Source: a virus
Virus record (IMG/VR): IMGVR_UViG_3300024344_000132
Span: 1 to 22,955 of that record
Reading direction: 5' to 3' (one strand)
Length of the DNA stretch: 22,955 nt
Made by a program: the position numbers and the translations under genes. Shown here piece by piece: positions 2,449 through 22,877 of the stretch. The number at the start of each line of letters is the position of its first letter. Position 1 is the first letter of the stretch. The notes beneath the pieces were generated by a model. It ran no database searches and had not been told where the DNA came from. It saw nothing but the letters and a program-made list of their open reading frames with translations.

Positions 2449-2456
2449 TATTTATA
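2449..2456 (-). promoter_or_regulatory. T4-type late promoter for the long tail fibre gene
   Basis: The minus strand reads TATAAATA, the exact T4 late-promoter box, in the 33-bp gap between the upstream fibre-like gene and the long fibre ATG at 2426. With T4 spacing (start about 6 bases past the box) the leader would be about 17 bases and would still contain the AAGGA ribosome site. Assignment is by exact match to the known consensus plus position. Confidence 0.75.
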
Positions 2457-4541: not shown

Positions 4542-7500
4542 TTAAACTGCCAAAGCAATTCCTCTTAAATCTTTAATTCTTGGAGGATAAGAACTAACTG
4601 TTCCTTTTAAAACAAGTTTAAGTTGAAATGATGTAAATGGAGCAAGACTACTAACACTATATTGGTGTTCTTTGAAAGTGCCATCGTCAGTTGGTGTAAC
4701 AGCCTTATCAGGAGAACCATCAGTATTAAATGGTGTCCACAATAAGTCTTTCATATCTCTAGCGTCATCAGCATTTGATACACGGAAATAAGCTTCTACT
4801 TCAGAGGTTGAAGGAACATCAGCAGATATACGAATATCAATAGATGTTGATTCATTCTCTAATTGAATTGCCCTTGTAATATATTTCGCAGATGAACTAC
4901 CTCCACTTTTTGCCGTATCAGCAACAAAGTCTGGTGTAGTTCCTGATACAGGATTATATAAGTGATTTCTTATTAAGTGAGCACTTAATCTACTTGTATC
5001 AATAATTGGCGAAATATTATCATCACCTGTTTGTGTTTTAATTTTTAAAGACATTGATAAAGATTTACTACCTGACATTTCGTTTGTTTCATTTATTTGA
5101 GAGGCAACAATTCTTGGTGCCGTCATATAATAATCTTCATTTAAATCTACTGCAACTTGTTTTGAAGCAGTTACTAAACTAAATTCTGTTTCACTACCCT
5201 CTAAAGTTTTACCAGTAGTTGTTCTTAATGTAGCAGAAAGTTCTGTGCCTGGTGGTTGAATAACACCAGCAATAGGTTTAATAACATCATACATCATATT
5301 TCTTGTAACGGTTACAGTTTCTCCACCAACATCTCCTGTTGCGTCAGCAGCGTCAGAATTTTGTGCTGTTACTTGATAACTATGCATTTTAATATTTTTA
5401 ATTGTTGTATATGTACCATTAATATTTGTAGAAGCAATACCGTTATATGTTCCTGAAGCAACACCAGCAATTGTTACATTATTTGATGTACTATGCATAC
5501 CGTGATTTCTATGATTTATTGTTATATCAGCAGAACCACTTGTTGTTGTAATAGGATTTAATCCTAATAATTTTGTAGGCACAACATCATTTACAAGAAC
5601 CACAGTTCCTTCAGTATTTTCTGTAAACTTACAACGATTAATTTTAAATTTAACATCTTCATTTTGTTCAGATGTCCATGTTGAAGCATTTTGTGATTTA
5701 AACATACTTCCAAGATACGGTTGATTAGAAATTAATCTTGAACCATCTAAAGTTGTTTGTCCTAATCTTGAAGTGTACATTGTATAATCTGTATTATTTG
5801 TAATTACACAAAACGCATATTCTATTCCATTCTGTAAAAATACAGGACTTGGGAATGTAAATTTAGTTGCAGCCGAAGCGTCATCTGATACAGTAATGTC
5901 AGCAGAGTCAACAGTTTGTTGACCAAAAGGAACAACTGTTGTAGTTGGGTAACCATTTACCATTGTTCTAATTTGAAGTGTTACAGGTAACGCACTTGAT
6001 TTAGTTTTAAAGTAAACCTCAATACTTGAAACATAAAGACCATTAGTCTTATCAACCATAAATGATTGACAAACAGGATCGAACCATCCGCCAGTTTCAT
6101 CTCTAACAATTCTAGTACCTTGAGCACCAATAACTTGACTTGTATCAGTTGATGTTGTTCTCTGTATTTGTGTTTCTCTAGTTGATAAAACTGTTCCTTG
6201 AACTGTTTGAATTAATCCTTTTGCTGTATAGTCTGCCTCAGCAGAAGTGGTTACAAGCCCTTCGGTTTTTACATTTGTTGAACTTGAAGTTAATCTGAAT
6301 ACTCTCTTACCAACTCTCCATCTTGGTGGTATTGTAAATCCTGGACCAGTTGGAATTATTCTAGGATCTCTTGGGGCAGGTAAAGCAAATACACCTGAAG
6401 CAGTACCAGCAGAATTAGTTGTTAAAGCTGCACCTGCACTTGAACCAGTTGGCGTTACATATGTTGAAACATCAACTCCATCAAAGAAAGGATAAATTCT
6501 TGTACCAGGTTTCATTCCTTTTGCAGTAAATGAAATATCTTTTGCTCTTATGAATGTAGCAAAAGCAACTTGTACTACTCTGTTACCAATACTTGTATTT
6601 CTTAATCCACCAGGAACTAAAGATGTTCTTACACCTGTTCTTGTTCTATTATTAACTTCTTGAAAATCAACTGTTGTTCTATTTACTCGTCTAATAAATG
6701 GCCATTGTGGTCGTCTATCAATACGGTTTTCATTTACCTCAGTACCAGCAATATCGACACTTGACCAGTTATTGTTCCATTCGTTCCATACAGTACCTAA
6801 ATTTAATTCTTGCACACTATTACCAGCACCGTCTGTAAGTGTATCAAATACACCAGGAATATTAACTGTCATTTCAGGAAGTGTTTCTGTTTCCATCCAA
6901 TCATCTTGGTCTGGAGTAAGTGTAACATTTCCTACAAATGATATGGTGTCATATGGGTTTAGATTAACAGTTGTACTAGCATATTGTTGTTCTATTTCTG
7001 TTACCTCAGTATAAGGTAAAGTAATTAAATCACCAGTTTTTTGATAACCATTTGTTGTTCTAATTGCGTCTGTCATAGAAGCACTATTTTCTAATGAAGA
7101 ATCTGCCTCAATTAGATTAGTATTATCCATATGGTGTGAAGGTCTTAATTCGCCTGCAGCCATATCCATAGATATAGAATAATCGTTATCACTAACATCA
7201 CCAATACCATGACCTGTAAAGTTATCTACTATGAAACCATTTTTAAATCTATCAAAACCATCAGCGTCTTGTATTTGTAAACTTTGAGCACTTTGTTCTA
7301 ATAAGTTTAATTGAGTATAATATTCCATATTCTCAATTCTTTTGTGTAGACCACCAATATCTCTCATTGTATATCTTCTATTATCAATTGCCTTTATTTC
7401 AATAGTTGATATATCAAAAGTATAAGCAGGCATATAAACATCATATAAATGTATTGCGTCTTTTAATTGTTCACCAAATCCTGGTTCAATTGCAGAAGCA

Positions 7501-12346: not shown

Positions 12347-12354
12347 TATTTATA
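12347..12354 (-). promoter_or_regulatory. T4-type late promoter upstream of gp8
   Basis: An exact TATAAATA on the minus strand lies in the 47-bp gap between the gp7 stop and the gp8 start. The expected RNA start is near 12341, giving a leader of about 29 bases. This starts the transcription unit gp8 - DUF4815 protein - small coiled-coil - paralogous fibres. Confidence 0.75.
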
Positions 12355-15521: not shown

Positions 15522-17387
15522 TTAGTATGATGAATAACTACTAGTTGTTGTATAAGTTGTTCCTGCCTGTGATGAACCACTTTCAACAGTATCTACATTA
15601 CCAGTTATAGTTGAATTAGAAGTATCTATTTCTAAAGTTTGATTACGAACTGGAGCAATATCGTTAGAATTTGGAATAGCAAAAACTCTTATTCTTGTAC
15701 TAGCAGCACCATCAACATTTGAAATACTTGTTATATTTGCTGATGTTAAAACAATTTCACCAGTTGTATAATTAACTGTGCCAAAAGTTGCACTTGTATA
15801 TATTCTTGTTGTACCACTTAAATAATAAACCCTAACATTACCTGCACCATCATCATCTAAAAAATGTTCATTCGTTGAATCGTCATCATTAATTTTAAAT
15901 CCTGTGGATGAAATTACTCCACCAGCACTTGAATTATGTCCAGAGTGTGGATTATAAAATCCATTGTTAAATGATAAAGTATATTTTAATCCTTCACTTA
16001 AAGTTGGTGTAAAAAATTTGTACATTTTAATAGTTGTAATATTACTTAAAATAGATGTATCAGCACCATTGACTGCTTCTAAAAGTTTTGAGTGTCTAAA
16101 GACGCCAACAAAATCTTGTAGAGTATCGACATTATAATTTGAAATTGCAGCTAAAACATTTGTTTCAAGTGTACTTACATCTTTTGTAGTTGCACCAGTA
16201 TCATATTTAAAATTTGTGTTTAAAGTAAGAAAAGTTGTTTCTGGATCAATAATTACTGGTCTTATAGAAGCAACAGCATATTGTTTAAGACTGTTTTTAA
16301 TACTTTCTTTTGTTGTTACTGTTAAGTTTGAACCTGATTTTGCTTTAATAGAAATATAAACTTTACCATAATCTGGTATAGCGGCATCTTCGCCACCATA
16401 AACTTGAACTGATTGAGCATTTGCATATAAACTTTTAACTAGAACTTTGTAATCGTCAGCTGTTACAGCACGGTCTTGTGCTGTATAATCTCTTGGTGCA
16501 TTATATTTAATAGATGTAATTGTTTCTGGTTCAGAACCACCATTTGCATTATCAACGGTTGTAACAGTCGCATTAGAAAAACCACCAATTGTTCCATTTA
16601 ATGTAAAAGAAGTAGCACCATTTGCTTCTGCTCTATTCGTGTTAATATAATCCAAAATAATAATATTACCATCAGCAACTGCTTTTCCTAAAACACCATC
16701 GCCAAAAGAAACTTCATATCTTCCGTTTTCAACTTCTTGTAAAAAGAAAACTTTAGATGATGAAGTTAATCCTGTAATACCATCAGCAAGTTTATATGTA
16801 CTTGTTGTAGAGTCAGAGGAAGATTCTTGAACTTTAACTGTTAGTGTTGTTGTATCTACATTATCATTTGGAATAATAAATCTTTGGTCTGTATCAGAGG
16901 TGTTTACTGTATATTTAAAATTTAAATATGTTCCTTCAAAAACATCTACATTACTAAACTTATAAACATTGTCAACAGGAGTAATACTTAAATCAGCATT
17001 GTTTACAAAATTATATGAAACGCCATTAACAGTTGTACTAAATTGTGTTCCTCTTGCCATAGTAAGTGTAGAACCACTAGCAGGACTAACTACCACATCA
17101 ATAACAGCCTTTGAAGCCGTAGCACTTGTTGGAGTATAACCAACTGCCTTTGCTTTTGATACTACACTTGCTCTTAAATCAGCACTATCTAAAAACATTT
17201 CATTTGCTAACATATTAGCATTGAAACCAAGATAGTGTGTATTGTAAGCAAGCATATCTAAAAGAACTGACATACCAGAACCTTCAAAGTCATAATCTCT
17301 AAATTCGTCTTGTTGTGATAAAAAGTTTTTTAGATTTGCTTTTATACCGTCAAAATCTAATTCTGATATTTCTAATTTAGTTGCCAT
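15522..17387 (-). CDS. gp6: Baseplate wedge subunit gp6
   Basis: This is a 621-residue homologue of T4 gp6 (660 aa), of the gp6/gp47 (baseplate J) group. The N-terminus carries the family signature: an FDGIKANLKNFLSQQDEF stretch, then YDFEGSGMSVLLDMLAYNTHY, NEMFLDSADLRASVV and GYTPTSATASKA, each with a clear T4 counterpart (YDFEGSRLNVLCDLLAYNT, ESFMRTANLRSSVV, GYLPTSKSAAQ). A central APRDYTAQDRAVTADDY at about residues 295-315 is typical of baseplate J-like proteins. T4 gp6 forms the inner iris ring of the baseplate with gp25 and gp53. It starts 4 bases after the gp25 stop and is in the gp25-gp6-gp7 unit. The C-terminus is Ser/Thr/Tyr-rich and of no recognised function. Confidence 0.93.
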   Translation of the reverse strand: MATKLEISELDFDGIKANLKNFLSQQDEFRDYDFEGSGMSVLLDMLAYNTHYLGFNANMLANEMFLDSADLRASVVSKAKAVGYTPTSATASKAVIDVVVSPASGSTLTMARGTQFSTTVNGVSYNFVNNADLSITPVDNVYKFSNVDVFEGTYLNFKYTVNTSDTDQRFIIPNDNVDTTTLTVKVQESSSDSTTSTYKLADGITGLTSSSKVFFLQEVENGRYEVSFGDGVLGKAVADGNIIILDYINTNRAEANGATSFTLNGTIGGFSNATVTTVDNANGGSEPETITSIKYNAPRDYTAQDRAVTADDYKVLVKSLYANAQSVQVYGGEDAAIPDYGKVYISIKAKSGSNLTVTTKESIKNSLKQYAVASIRPVIIDPETTFLTLNTNFKYDTGATTKDVSTLETNVLAAISNYNVDTLQDFVGVFRHSKLLEAVNGADTSILSNITTIKMYKFFTPTLSEGLKYTLSFNNGFYNPHSGHNSSAGGVISSTGFKINDDDSTNEHFLDDDGAGNVRVYYLSGTTRIYTSATFGTVNYTTGEIVLTSANITSISNVDGAASTRIRVFAIPNSNDIAPVRNQTLEIDTSNSTITGNVDTVESGSSQAGTTYTTTSSYSSY

Positions 17388-17391
17388 ATTT

Positions 17392-17817
17392 TTATCTTAG
17401 TCTTTCTAAAAATGATTCCATTTCAACTCTTTCTGGAGTATTTACTACAAAAAAAGATATTGACGCTCTGTATCCATTTCTTTCTATAAAAGGTTGTACG
17501 TTTATTTGAACTAGTTTTGCTCTTGGTTCAAAGTTTTTTATTAATAAATCAATTTGTTTAGAGAGAGCATGAGTCATTTGTGGAGTGATATTTTCAAATA
17601 ACATCGCTCTCAAATTAGAACCAATTTCAGGATGAAAAGGTCTCTCATAATGATTAGTGTTAATTAAATTTCTAACACTTCTTTTGACTGCCTCAACATC
17701 CGAAAGTTTCTGAATATCTTTTGTAGCACTATTAACAGAAAAGTCTAAATCTAAATCACGATAGATTTTAGCGCTTCTTTTACTCTCGTTACTTTGTGTT
17801 GCGTCATATCTTGACAT
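17392..17817 (-). CDS. gp25: Baseplate wedge subunit gp25 (GPW/gp25 family)
   Basis: The 141-residue protein (T4 gp25: 132 aa) carries the gp25/lysozyme-like fold signatures. These are YRDLDLDFSVNSATKDI at the N-terminus, AVKRSVRNLINTNHYERPF, PEIGSNLRAMLFE at about residues 63-75, and the hallmark EPR triad at 97-99. In T4, gp25 joins gp6 and gp53 in the inner baseplate and helps start sheath assembly; the EPR motif is the contact found also in type VI secretion TssE. The start follows AGGAGA at good spacing and the TATAAATA promoter at 17839-17846. It is the first gene of its late unit. Confidence 0.95.
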   Translation of the reverse strand: MSRYDATQSNESKRSAKIYRDLDLDFSVNSATKDIQKLSDVEAVKRSVRNLINTNHYERPFHPEIGSNLRAMLFENITPQMTHALSKQIDLLIKNFEPRAKLVQINVQPFIERNGYRASISFFVVNTPERVEMESFLERLR

Positions 17818-17838: not shown

Positions 17839-17846
17839 TATTTATA
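17839..17846 (-). promoter_or_regulatory. T4-type late promoter upstream of gp25
   Basis: An exact TATAAATA on the minus strand lies in the 32-bp gap between the PAAR gene and gp25. The predicted RNA start near 17833 leaves a leader of about 16 bases that includes the AGGAGA ribosome site. It opens the gp25-gp6-gp7 unit. Confidence 0.75.
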
Positions 17847-17849
17847 CCG

Positions 17850-18146
17850 TTATCCACCAGCGAATACATTACCTGAACCTGCAGCTACAGACGTACATCC
17901 TGATATACTATCACCTACACGACCACATCCTTTACCATTAACTTTAACAGTTGATGAGCCTGAAGCAATACCAGCTGCATGAGAAGGACACGGTGGTACA
18001 TTAGGTGGTAAAAGATGAGTAGTGTTATTATCACCTTGTCTTGAAACCCCTATACCATTACAAAATACATTTGAAGAACCTGCAGCTCTTGTCATACCAC
18101 TACAATGTGTTACATCAGCGTCGCCTATTCTAGTTACTGCTGGCAT
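17850..18146 (-). CDS. PAAR-domain tail-spike tip protein (gp5.4-like)
   Basis: The 98-residue protein has the length of T4 gp5.4 (97 aa). It starts MPAVTRIGDADVTHC and has the Gly/Ser/Val turns and repeated VN-GxGxxRxGD pattern (NGIGVSRQGD at about 30-39, NGKGCGRVGD at 70-79) of PAAR proteins. H14, H44, H56 and C84 are candidate zinc ligands. PAAR proteins cap the central gp5-type spike as a sharp tip that first pierces the outer membrane. Its ATG lies 13 bases inside the preceding 68-aa gene, suggesting coupled translation. It is followed directly by the gp25 promoter. The zinc ligands are chosen by family analogy. Confidence 0.93.
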   Translation of the reverse strand: MPAVTRIGDADVTHCSGMTRAAGSSNVFCNGIGVSRQGDNNTTHLLPPNVPPCPSHAAGIASGSSTVKVNGKGCGRVGDSISGCTSVAAGSGNVFAGG

Positions 18147-18340
18147 TCTCTTCCTCTTTTAAATACTTCTTGAAATCTATCATTGAATGTATTAATATAA
18201 TCATGGTCTTCCTGAGTGTGTGGCTCAGGTGGTTCTTCTGGAACAAATTTGATAAGGTGGTCAAACTCGTCAGGTATATCTGTACTATTAGAAAATTCTA
18301 AAAAAGAAGTTCCTATTTTTACAATATACTCACCCTTCAT
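18134..18340 (-). CDS. Small acidic protein of unknown function before the PAAR gene
   Basis: The 68-residue protein has an N-terminal IVKIGTSFLEFSNSTDIPDEFDHLIKF segment, then a proline-rich acidic linker (VPEEPPEPHTQEDHD) and a C-terminal helix (NTFNDRFQEVFKRGRECQQ). I do not recognise a named family. Its ATG overlaps the TAA of the lysine-rich peptide gene (TAATG) and its end overlaps the PAAR start, so the three genes are translationally linked. The position next to the spike tip suggests a baseplate or spike-assembly role; this is inference only. Confidence 0.65.
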   Translation of the reverse strand: MKGEYIVKIGTSFLEFSNSTDIPDEFDHLIKFVPEEPPEPHTQEDHDYINTFNDRFQEVFKRGRECQQ

Positions 18341-18453
18341 TATTTTTTCTTTGCAGATTTCTTTTTAGTTTTTTTCTTTGCTACTTTTTTGACTTTAGCA
18401 ACTTTTTCAGCTACTTTCTTTTTGCCAAATCCTAACATTTCTAAAATTTTCAT
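18340..18453 (-). CDS. Lysine-rich 37-aa peptide
   Basis: This small gene has ATG 18453, TAA at 18342-18340, and an excellent ribosome site, AGGAG, five to six bases before the ATG. The product has a short hydrophobic start (MKILEMLGFG) followed by a tail of Lys, Ala, Val and Thr; 17 of its 37 residues are lysine. The stop overlaps the next ATG as TAATG, and the preceding nuclease gene ends eight bases before the ATG. Basic low-complexity tails of this kind resemble histone-H1-like or DNA-binding tails. A nucleic-acid binding role, or an accessory to the nuclease whose own tail is similar, is inference. It could also be a non-functional low-complexity reading frame, but the ribosome site and tight packing argue for a gene. 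Confidence 0.6.
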   Translation of the reverse strand: MKILEMLGFGKKKVAEKVAKVKKVAKKKTKKKSAKKK

Positions 18454-18461
18454 ACTTTCTC

Positions 18462-19013
18462 CTATTTCTTTTTAGATGTTTTTTTCTTTTTAGTTTTTTT
18501 AACTGGTTCTGAAACTTCTTCAACAACCGGTTCTTCAACGATTGGTTTTTGTACTAATGCTGGTTTGGTTACTTCCATACCTTCAACATCAACTTTACCT
18601 TCATTGACTAATCTTTGTCTATTCTCTAAATGTTTTGCTTGAATCTTTTCCTTGTTGCCACCAGAGTAAGCAACAGCGTGACCTTCTTCCATAAGTTTAG
18701 AAGTTAGTATGTCTCCTTGTGGTGTTCTAAAATCACCAAGAATACGACCAAACTTGCCTCGCATTTCTTCGTTACCATCACCTTTAACTTTAGACAATAG
18801 AGTAGCACCATCGCCAAGTAAATGTTTTACTCTTTCTTTTGCTGCTAAACCAAAAATCTTTTCAACTTTATCACTAGTTCTTGATTCAGGAGTATCAATG
18901 CCTATAATTCTCACTCTTTCATCATTGAGCCAGACACCGAAACCTAAATCAATATCAATATCAACGGTATCTCCGTCAACAACTTTTCTAATTTTGCATT
19001 TATACTCGTACAT
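18462..19013 (-). CDS. Staphylococcal nuclease-type (thermonuclease) protein
   Basis: This is a 183-residue protein counted from ATG 19013; a longer frame to 19127 crosses the promoter and is not used. The start has AAGGA 7-8 bases upstream. The SNase fold is clear: VVDGDTVDIDIDLGF at about 11-25 (metal-binding Asp in DGDT), then RVRIIGIDTPESR with R35, D40, T41 and E43, and KFGRILGDF with R90 at the place of the third catalytic residue. The nuclease core ends near residue 140. A Pro/Val/Glu linker (about 145-170) and a 12-residue lysine-rich tail follow. No signal peptide is seen, so it should act in the cytoplasm or be packed in the virion. SNase enzymes cut DNA and RNA with calcium. It is the first gene of the late unit that ends with the PAAR tip. 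Degradation of host DNA or delivery with the tail are both possible; neither is shown. Confidence 0.88.
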   Translation of the reverse strand: MYEYKCKIRKVVDGDTVDIDIDLGFGVWLNDERVRIIGIDTPESRTSDKVEKIFGLAAKERVKHLLGDGATLLSKVKGDGNEEMRGKFGRILGDFRTPQGDILTSKLMEEGHAVAYSGGNKEKIQAKHLENRQRLVNEGKVDVEGMEVTKPALVQKPIVEEPVVEEVSEPVKKTKKKKTSKKK

Positions 19014-19042: not shown

Positions 19043-19050
19043 TATTTATA
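19043..19050 (-). promoter_or_regulatory. T4-type late promoter upstream of the nuclease gene
   Basis: The minus strand reads TATAAATA, followed by an AT-rich leader with AAGGA before ATG 19013. The expected RNA start is near 19037. It lies only five bases from the -35 hexamer of the divergent plus-strand promoter at 19056-19084, so the two promoters cannot easily be occupied at the same time. Confidence 0.78.
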
Positions 19051-21702: not shown

Positions 21703-21916
21703 TAAAGCAATTTTTAAGTTAGCAAAGTATCTATTTCTTCCATTTTTTTTAGTTATCTTTTTTGCTGCTCTTTTAGGCAGAGAAAGAATAGCAGTCTTTT
21801 ATGTGGGCGAACAAAATAGTTTAGTTGAAGAATATCTAATCATAGCACTTCTTTTAGTTTTATATGATTATATAAAATTTTTAATTGAATATAAAAAAAA
21901 TAATAACGGAGTGTAG
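21692..21916 (+). CDS. Small membrane protein overlapping the tRNA
   Basis: The 74-residue protein has two hydrophobic segments, at about 9-28 ([20 protein letters not shown]) and 44-60 ([17 protein letters not shown]), with a loop [14 protein letters not shown] and a basic tail (EYKKNNNGV). It overlaps the DUF3310-like gene by 11 bases. Its last codons and TAG stop fall inside the first ten bases of the tRNA gene, an unusual economy. Inner-membrane location is inferred; function unknown. Confidence 0.6.
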
Positions 21917-21983
21917 CGCAGCCTGGTAGCGCATATCGTTTGGGACGATAGGGCCGCAGGTTCGAATCCTGCCACTCCGACCA
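21907..21983 (+). tRNA. tRNA-Pro (anticodon UGG)
   Basis: A complete 77-base cloverleaf with CCA encoded. The acceptor stem CGGAGTG pairs fully with CACTCCG, followed by A and CCA. The D-arm is GCGC/GCGC with a GGTA loop. The anticodon stem TATCG/CGATA closes the loop TTTGGGA, giving anticodon TGG. The T-arm is GCAGG-TTCGAAT-CCTGC. The pattern closely follows bacterial tRNA-Pro(UGG). It would read CCA proline codons, which appear often in the late genes of this window. Confidence 0.97.
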
Positions 21984-22538: not shown

Positions 22539-22877
22539 TTATTTTGTGAAATTGAACTCATAACCGATTACGATACCAATATTCTTTTTTTCGTATTCGT
22601 AAGAAGGAGAAACAAACCAGTCTCGATCCGTGTATCTCATAAACGGCACAATATCACCACCACTATAACCAGTAGCAAGACCAATCTCTAGATGTACGAA
22701 ACGATCCAATGCATAGTCTTTGCCAGCATATAAACTGATATTGTTTTCGCTATTATAGAAAACACCTGTAATCGTATTGTCTATTTGACAACGAGCATGA
22801 GGGTGAATATTATTGTAGTTGTTTTCGAGGCCTATGTGCATTGACACAGCCATGAGTAATGAAAGACAAGTATTCAA
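22539..22877 (-). CDS. Small outer-membrane-barrel-like protein
   Basis: The 112-residue frame begins at TTG 22877, immediately after the stop of the gene upstream. ATG 22853 (MAVSMHIGLENNY, 104 residues) is an equally possible start; neither has a clear ribosome site. After a short hydrophobic N-terminus (CLSLLMAVSMHIGL), alternating strands follow: ITGVFYNSENNISLYAGKDY, FVHLEIGLATGYSGGDIVPF, DWFVSPSYEYE and a final IGIVIGYEFNF ending close to an aromatic residue, as in outer-membrane beta-barrels. Similar short proteins with GYSG-D-VP and a final GYEF occur in marine phages. Too short for a closed 8-strand barrel, so it may oligomerise or be a structural mimic. Function unknown. Confidence 0.65.
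   Translation of the reverse strand: MNTCLSLLMAVSMHIGLENNYNNIHPHARCQIDNTITGVFYNSENNISLYAGKDYALDRFVHLEIGLATGYSGGDIVPFMRYTDRDWFVSPSYEYEKKNIGIVIGYEFNFTK

Follow-up and report, generated by a model that had tools for sequence, protein, structure and literature searches.

The nuclease gene and the lysine-rich peptide gene at the head of a spike-tip operon in a marine T4-like phage are best explained as two independent late genes, one for a late nuclease with an electrostatic tail and the other for a separate cationic, possibly membrane-acting peptide. We hold this reading tentatively, at a probability of about 0.35. The DNA analyzed, hereafter the window, is a viral contig of 22,955 bases. Its closest cultured relatives are marine T4-like phages, namely Pelagibacter phage HTVC008M, Mosig and Methylophilales phage Melnitz, and the window phage is a pelagimyophage relative belonging to this group.

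The operon lies on the minus strand and runs from position 19013 in the order nuclease (183 aa, 18462-19013), peptide (37 aa, 18340-18453), a 68-aa gene of the unknown-function family phrog_24555 (18134-18340), the PAAR spike-tip protein (17850-18146; PF05488, E 2.4e-8; phrog_281) and the baseplate wedge proteins gp25 (17392-17817; PF04965, E 1.5e-12; phrog_261, 5.9e-42) and gp6 (15522-17387; PF21379; phrog_219, 2.1e-192). A preliminary description of this DNA had put the nuclease at the head of the operon and credited it with its catalytic residues and a 12-residue lysine tail, followed by the 37-aa peptide. Translation confirmed these residue counts, and a late promoter element at 19043-19050 sits in front of the nuclease. 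The same description had the spike-tip genes follow after the peptide; PAAR, gp25 and gp6 are indeed downstream, but the 68-aa gene, which it did not mention, intervenes before PAAR. Among relatives, the spike-tip region forms a hypervariable cassette. The PAAR gene is swapped for very different PAAR types (in L024, L040, L045, L062 and others), and extra genes come and go between the peptide and gp25, for example a gene of 153-165 aa in L017-L022. Elsewhere in the window, a 112-aa protein (22539-22877, minus strand) matched the PagP-type (lipid A acylation) phage family phrog_3600 with an E-value of 7e-9, and a tRNA-Pro with anticodon tgg was found at 21907-21983 (plus strand).

The promoter element in front of the nuclease is TATAAATA, present as CTTATAAATAG at 29 nt from the start codon. 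It resembles the gp55/gp33-dependent late promoter of T4 in being an exact motif at a near-fixed distance upstream, and the HTVC008M annotation names a late sigma factor as well as a late promoter transcription factor. Four exact copies of TATAAATA were found in the window (2449-2456, 12347-12354, 17839-17846 and 19043-19050), a number not above chance (3.6 expected). Their placement is non-random: all four are minus-strand copies shortly before structural genes, one of them ahead of the nuclease and another, at 17839-17846, ahead of gp25. The exact motif CTTATAAATAG was present upstream of the nuclease in 46 of 46 distinct regions from relatives (shuffled mean 2.2), starting 35-47 nt from the ATG. 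In HTVC008M, 11 of 21 late motifs lay within the 60 nt preceding an ORF, where about 0.9 would be expected. Given this conserved promoter, the operon is late as far as sequence can establish, which agrees with the late expression together with PAAR and baseplate genes put forward in the preliminary description. A survey of pelagimyophages stated that late promoters were not predictable (PMC7029224); the conserved CTTATAAATAG is a usable late-promoter signature for these phages, in which prediction reportedly failed. The exact motif was not found before the peptide in HTVC008M-type phages, with the exception of L117. In HTVC008M, the late motif often begins only 13 nt before the ATG, as at gp25 (L082 5274-5717) and at genes near record positions 6266, 31118 and 49746, a spacing that would produce late transcripts with very short leaders or none.

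The nuclease matched the SNase family PF00565 over residues 33-133 (18615-18917; E 4.9e-10, 40.2 bits against a curated cut-off of 21) and the PHROG family phrog_452, annotated as 'endonuclease' (E 2e-29). A PDB search with a profile of 24 relatives retrieved the S. aureus nuclease at 7.6e-9. Residues D15, R35, D40, T41, E43 and R90, which we take to be equivalent to the S. aureus catalytic set D21, R35, D40, T41, E43 and R87, were all invariant among 20 close relatives, and in a set including Melnitz and cyanophages only T41 varied (23 of 24). With regard to the OB-fold of this family, the best Foldseek matches of the AlphaFold model were to staphylococcal nuclease (E 8.6e-5, TM-scores 0.4-0.5), for a model of low confidence (pLDDT 59.6). 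Confidence was very low at residues 149-183, consistent with disorder in this predicted part of the model. The window nuclease is thus like the staphylococcal nuclease or thermonuclease group (PF00565; phage cluster phrog_452, cyanophage cluster T4-GC228) in domain, catalytic residues and length, and shares 43-50% identity with its Melnitz and cyanophage homologs by alignment. It differs from the staphylococcal enzyme, which is secreted, in that its domain begins almost at the N-terminus and a signal peptide is absent. It also differs from its PF00565/phrog_452 kin by its place in a PAAR-gp25 operon behind its own late promoter, and by a lysine-rich tail that is absent from the aligned Melnitz and cyanophage homologs.

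This tail, residues 172-183 (KKTKKKKTSKKK, 18465-18500), is predicted to be disordered. The protein ends in PVKKTKKKKTSKKK, with nine lysines among the final 12 residues, and the last 12 codons had a pN/pS of 0.28 among relatives, in pairs that are not independent. The nuclease and the peptide were the only ORFs of the window with at least nine lysines among the 12 C-terminal residues, the runner-up having three. All 204 called ORFs of HTVC008M had at most five; gp048, missed by the caller, has six. Such tails are exceptional in both genomes, more than chance would give. Homologous nucleases are located just upstream of the terminase gene gp17 in P-SSM4 and S-RIM2 and among metabolic genes in S-TIM5. 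The link between nuclease and spike tip is, from these gene orders, a feature of the window's clade and Melnitz, a weak argument against a role dedicated to the spike; within the operons of the window's clade, the nuclease has a fixed place and promoter.

The 37-aa peptide, MKILEMLGFGKKKVAEKVAKVKKVAKKKTKKKSAKKK, contains 17 lysines (46%) and consists of a hydrophobic start (residues 1-10, 18424-18453) and a cationic remainder (residues 11-37, 18343-18423). In 73 of 76 testable relatives it follows the nuclease immediately, and 50 of 63 distinct cases carry an AGGAG of their own; in the window, this Shine-Dalgarno sequence (18459-18463) overlaps the nuclease stop codon. Its pN/pS among relatives was 0.40 in frame, compared with 0.83 and 1.26 in the shifted frames, and 0.27 for the lysine tail alone, all from pairs that are not independent. 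Judged by these comparisons, the peptide is a real gene, and both lysine tails are under purifying selection as protein. Its variants, 34-77 aa long, carry a net charge of +10 to +18. Even near-identical operons have exchanged their N-terminal module: of 86 pairs in which gp25 reached 95% identity or more and the nuclease 90% or more, 23 had less than 50% identity over the first 12 peptide residues. Since the modules of these pairs differ entirely, only the gross character, a hydrophobic start and a cationic tail, is kept. Most N-terminal classes are amphipathic (MGFLSKLW, MKYLKKIFDWFF, MNKINKWFKNLW). The helical moment exceeded that of shuffles in 8 of 14 distinct N-termini at p <0.05 and in 11 of 14 at p <0.1, with a combined p of 3e-10 over the 14, which are related sequences. 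The N-terminus of the window peptide (MKILEMLGFGKKK), of the MKILEMLG class, showed no unusual amphipathicity (p 0.88 for its class). Searches of Pfam and PHROG returned no family for the peptide or its variants. A tblastn search of 50,697 phage records with HTVC008M gp048 matched only HTVC008M itself, the C-terminal module KGKYKADDKSTKDYNEAWVGG of some variants had no match in phage records, and within the literature collection searched, no report on the lysine-rich peptide or on HTVC008M virion proteomics was found.

The preliminary description had proposed a common function for the two basic tails. We found no support for it, as either gene occurs without the other in relatives. Operons were sampled through gp25 and not through the nuclease; at a gp25 identity of at least 65%, the nuclease was present in 63 of 63 operons and the peptide in 59 of 63, in a sample that includes the window and near-duplicates and in which the L291 peptide was recognized by eye. 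The nuclease was kept and the peptide lost, a pattern that the preliminary description had named as counting against its proposal, in L020-022 and in L277, L281, L282 and L287. A tailed nuclease runs straight into PAAR in L277, L282 and L287 (the PAAR gene of L282 was not recognized by the search), and in L281 the nuclease is also tail-less. Tail-less nucleases stand beside a peptide in L072, L073, L075, L076 and L312. Conversely, in HTVC008M (gp048) and 12 further contigs of its type the peptide heads PAAR-gp25-gp6 without a nuclease, and no SNase was detectable anywhere in the HTVC008M genome. The 46-aa gp048, annotated as a hypothetical protein, resembles the window peptide with its MGFLTKLW start, its KKKKKSTKKKSTKKRS tail and its place at the head of an operon that continues to PAAR, gp25 and gp6. 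It differs in lacking a nuclease and an exact TATAAATA upstream, and in that the genes after it encode a Cys-rich peptide of 40 aa and two more small products. Because relatives carry either gene without the other, the nuclease and the peptide probably do different jobs.

In nuclease-free operons, the head slot was taken by the lysine-rich peptide (13 loci, selected by a pattern for the peptide) or by a small lipoprotein (21 loci), a distribution that may reflect two clades rather than repeated replacement. This lipoprotein is of the Mosig_00111 type with a lipobox (L083 6172-6375 and 20 other loci, e.g. L298 and L315) and is followed by a Cys-rich peptide of 30-55 aa. An apparent double in L344 involves an ORF without the N-terminal motif, which we judged spurious. 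In cyanophage P-HM1 (L204 4317-4490 and 4758-5264), the homolog of the 68-aa gene and PAAR are preceded by a protein of 58 aa (phrog_36349) that has a hydrophobic segment and a basic tail. A 169-aa protein annotated as 'toxin' stands between that homolog and PAAR, directly before the latter.

The two lysine tracts recombine. Compared with L017/L019, a clean in-frame deletion of 174 nt in L020-022 runs from the nuclease tract into the peptide tract; the peptide is gone there, and the nuclease carries a composite tail. In the pattern AAA AAA xxx AAA AAG, the variable codon (ACT, AAT or ATT) is the same in both tails of each genome (L001, L003 and L016), which in three distinct genomes is at most suggestive of gene conversion within the window's clade. 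Concerted evolution of the tails across all loci was not significant (p 0.13). The recombination of the tracts lends partial support to the earlier idea of a duplicated tail. On present evidence, the two tails are coupled by history and not by function, and the tracts illustrate how low-complexity tails can spread between neighboring genes. We rejected a conserved fusion of nuclease and peptide by frameshift or readthrough, as their relative frame varies across relatives (offsets 0, 1 and 2). Slippery dnaX-like A_AAA_AAG heptamers were noticed in the lysine tracts of relatives, which in the window correspond to 18465-18500 and 18343-18423. The window peptide is in the -1 frame of the nuclease, so that a slip could fuse both, yet this frame is not conserved.

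It seems unlikely to us that the tail and the peptide nevertheless share a function, with the peptide acting in trans as a polycationic cofactor or tether to keep the nuclease on DNA or to neutralize it until it is needed. The peptide does adjoin the nuclease in 73 of 76 nuclease loci, it is present in 59 of the 63 operons sampled through gp25, and the tail codons match in the window's clade. However, HTVC008M and phages of its type have the peptide without the nuclease, in HTVC008M even without a detectable SNase, several lineages keep the nuclease without the peptide, and the peptide is also kept where the nuclease has no tail. We are similarly doubtful that the peptide is a nucleic-acid-binding mini-protein, histone-like or related to packaging, that acts independently of the nuclease. 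Its high net charge over so short a length would suit such a role, as would a lysine tail conserved as protein while the N-terminus changes, but the recurrent hydrophobic or amphipathic N-terminus and the lipoprotein that takes this slot in sister phages would be left unexplained.

The SNases are known as a family of non-specific nucleases and not as homing enzymes, and for this reason we rejected the idea of a homing-type or otherwise mobile endonuclease reshuffling this region, which has very little probability. It could draw on the differing neighbors of the nuclease in cyanophages and on the homing-type shuffling role suggested in a cyanophage study for cluster T4-GC228 (PMC3037559), but the SNase family and catalytic set argue against it, as does the constancy of the nuclease's place and promoter across operons of the window's clade. 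It is also very unlikely that the lysine tails are a by-product of an A-rich ribosome-entry sequence for the next gene, unselected as protein. The peptide stop overlaps the start of the 68-aa gene (TAATG), so that the ribosome-entry site of the latter falls in lysine codons, but we disfavor this origin because the tails have a pN/pS of 0.27-0.28 and because AAG makes up 37-40% of their lysine codons, compared with 20% in the nuclease body, the opposite of maximizing A. Other ORFs of the window and of HTVC008M also lack such tails. Delivery of nuclease and peptide into the host with the particle, as spike-tip virion proteins, was hinted at in the preliminary description and would be in line with late transcription together with PAAR, gp25 and gp6. 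This claim went unsupported, and we rate it as quite improbable: the homologous cyanophage nuclease adjoins gp17 or metabolic genes and not baseplate genes, it is not named in the virion-protein section of the cyanophage study (PMC3037559), and no targeting feature was seen.

Under the preferred reading of two independent late genes, a cytoplasmic SNase-type nuclease without signal peptide would be made late from a T4-type promoter, and its disordered lysine tail would tether it to nucleic acid electrostatically and without specificity. Judging from staphylococcal nuclease, the enzyme may cleave both DNA and RNA and may need millimolar calcium, so that it would stay mostly inactive while the cell is intact and would act on host or released nucleic acid at lysis, as the envelope fails in calcium-rich seawater. 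The peptide would be a small polycation in which a lysine tail is joined to a hydrophobic or amphipathic N-terminal module that can be exchanged. It would most likely be membrane-acting, either as a disruptin-like or as another late envelope-active peptide. Module swaps that keep only the gross character would fit a membrane-active or non-specific polycation better than a specific protein partner. Recombination between the lysine-coding tracts has fused the two tails and has probably swapped and homogenized them.

The archetype disruptin, phiKT gp28, is a short amphipathic cationic peptide (PMC12819732), and a comparison with it concerns the way of working only, there being no sequence homology. 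Both are short, cationic and products of late genes, the peptide variants with their 34-77 aa and +10 to +18 lying behind the late promoter of the operon. As for an amphipathic helix, 8 of 14 N-terminal classes reached p <0.05, the window's own class not being among them. However, phiKT gp28 has a charge of +7 and sits between endolysin and holin genes, whereas the peptide has a lysine tract and is found at a baseplate operon, with the nuclease, the 68-aa gene, PAAR and gp25 as neighbors and no lysis gene nearby. For Melnitz, lysis by curli pores and an autolysin-like enzyme has been proposed (PMC9004378). Host lysis by phages of SAR11 and related streamlined marine bacteria is poorly understood. 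For an envelope function in these abundant ocean phages the peptide, being late, cationic and conserved, and found both with and without a nuclease, offers a candidate that is short and easy to synthesize. It is conceivable, if rather unlikely, that the peptide typifies a so far unnamed family of membrane-active cationic peptides made late by pelagimyophages. Such peptides would be analogous to disruptins, stand in for a small lipoprotein at the head of the spike-tip operon, evolve through swaps of the hydrophobic module and exchange their lysine tract with an adjacent nuclease.

Further variants of the peptide were observed. A C-terminal module RAR.KGKYKADDKSTK.YNEAWVGGKAPKKKKKK occurs in some peptides (L017, L026, L072 and L075), and its swapping is the main difference between those of L073 and L075. 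A lysine-rich MGFLSKLW peptide was also found outside the PAAR operon, on a 69-kb contig (L174 353-520 in reverse-complement numbering of the locus), where its neighbors, named by eye, are a methyltransferase-like, a superoxide-dismutase-like and two iron-sulfur-assembly-like genes. The motif MGF[LF]SKLWKG[IV]KK opens proteins of 230-420 aa in other phages (L090, L092, L101, L104, L105, L110 and others), where it is followed by an amphipathic lysine-rich stretch. This start, common to the peptide and the longer proteins, is possibly a shared membrane-active one.
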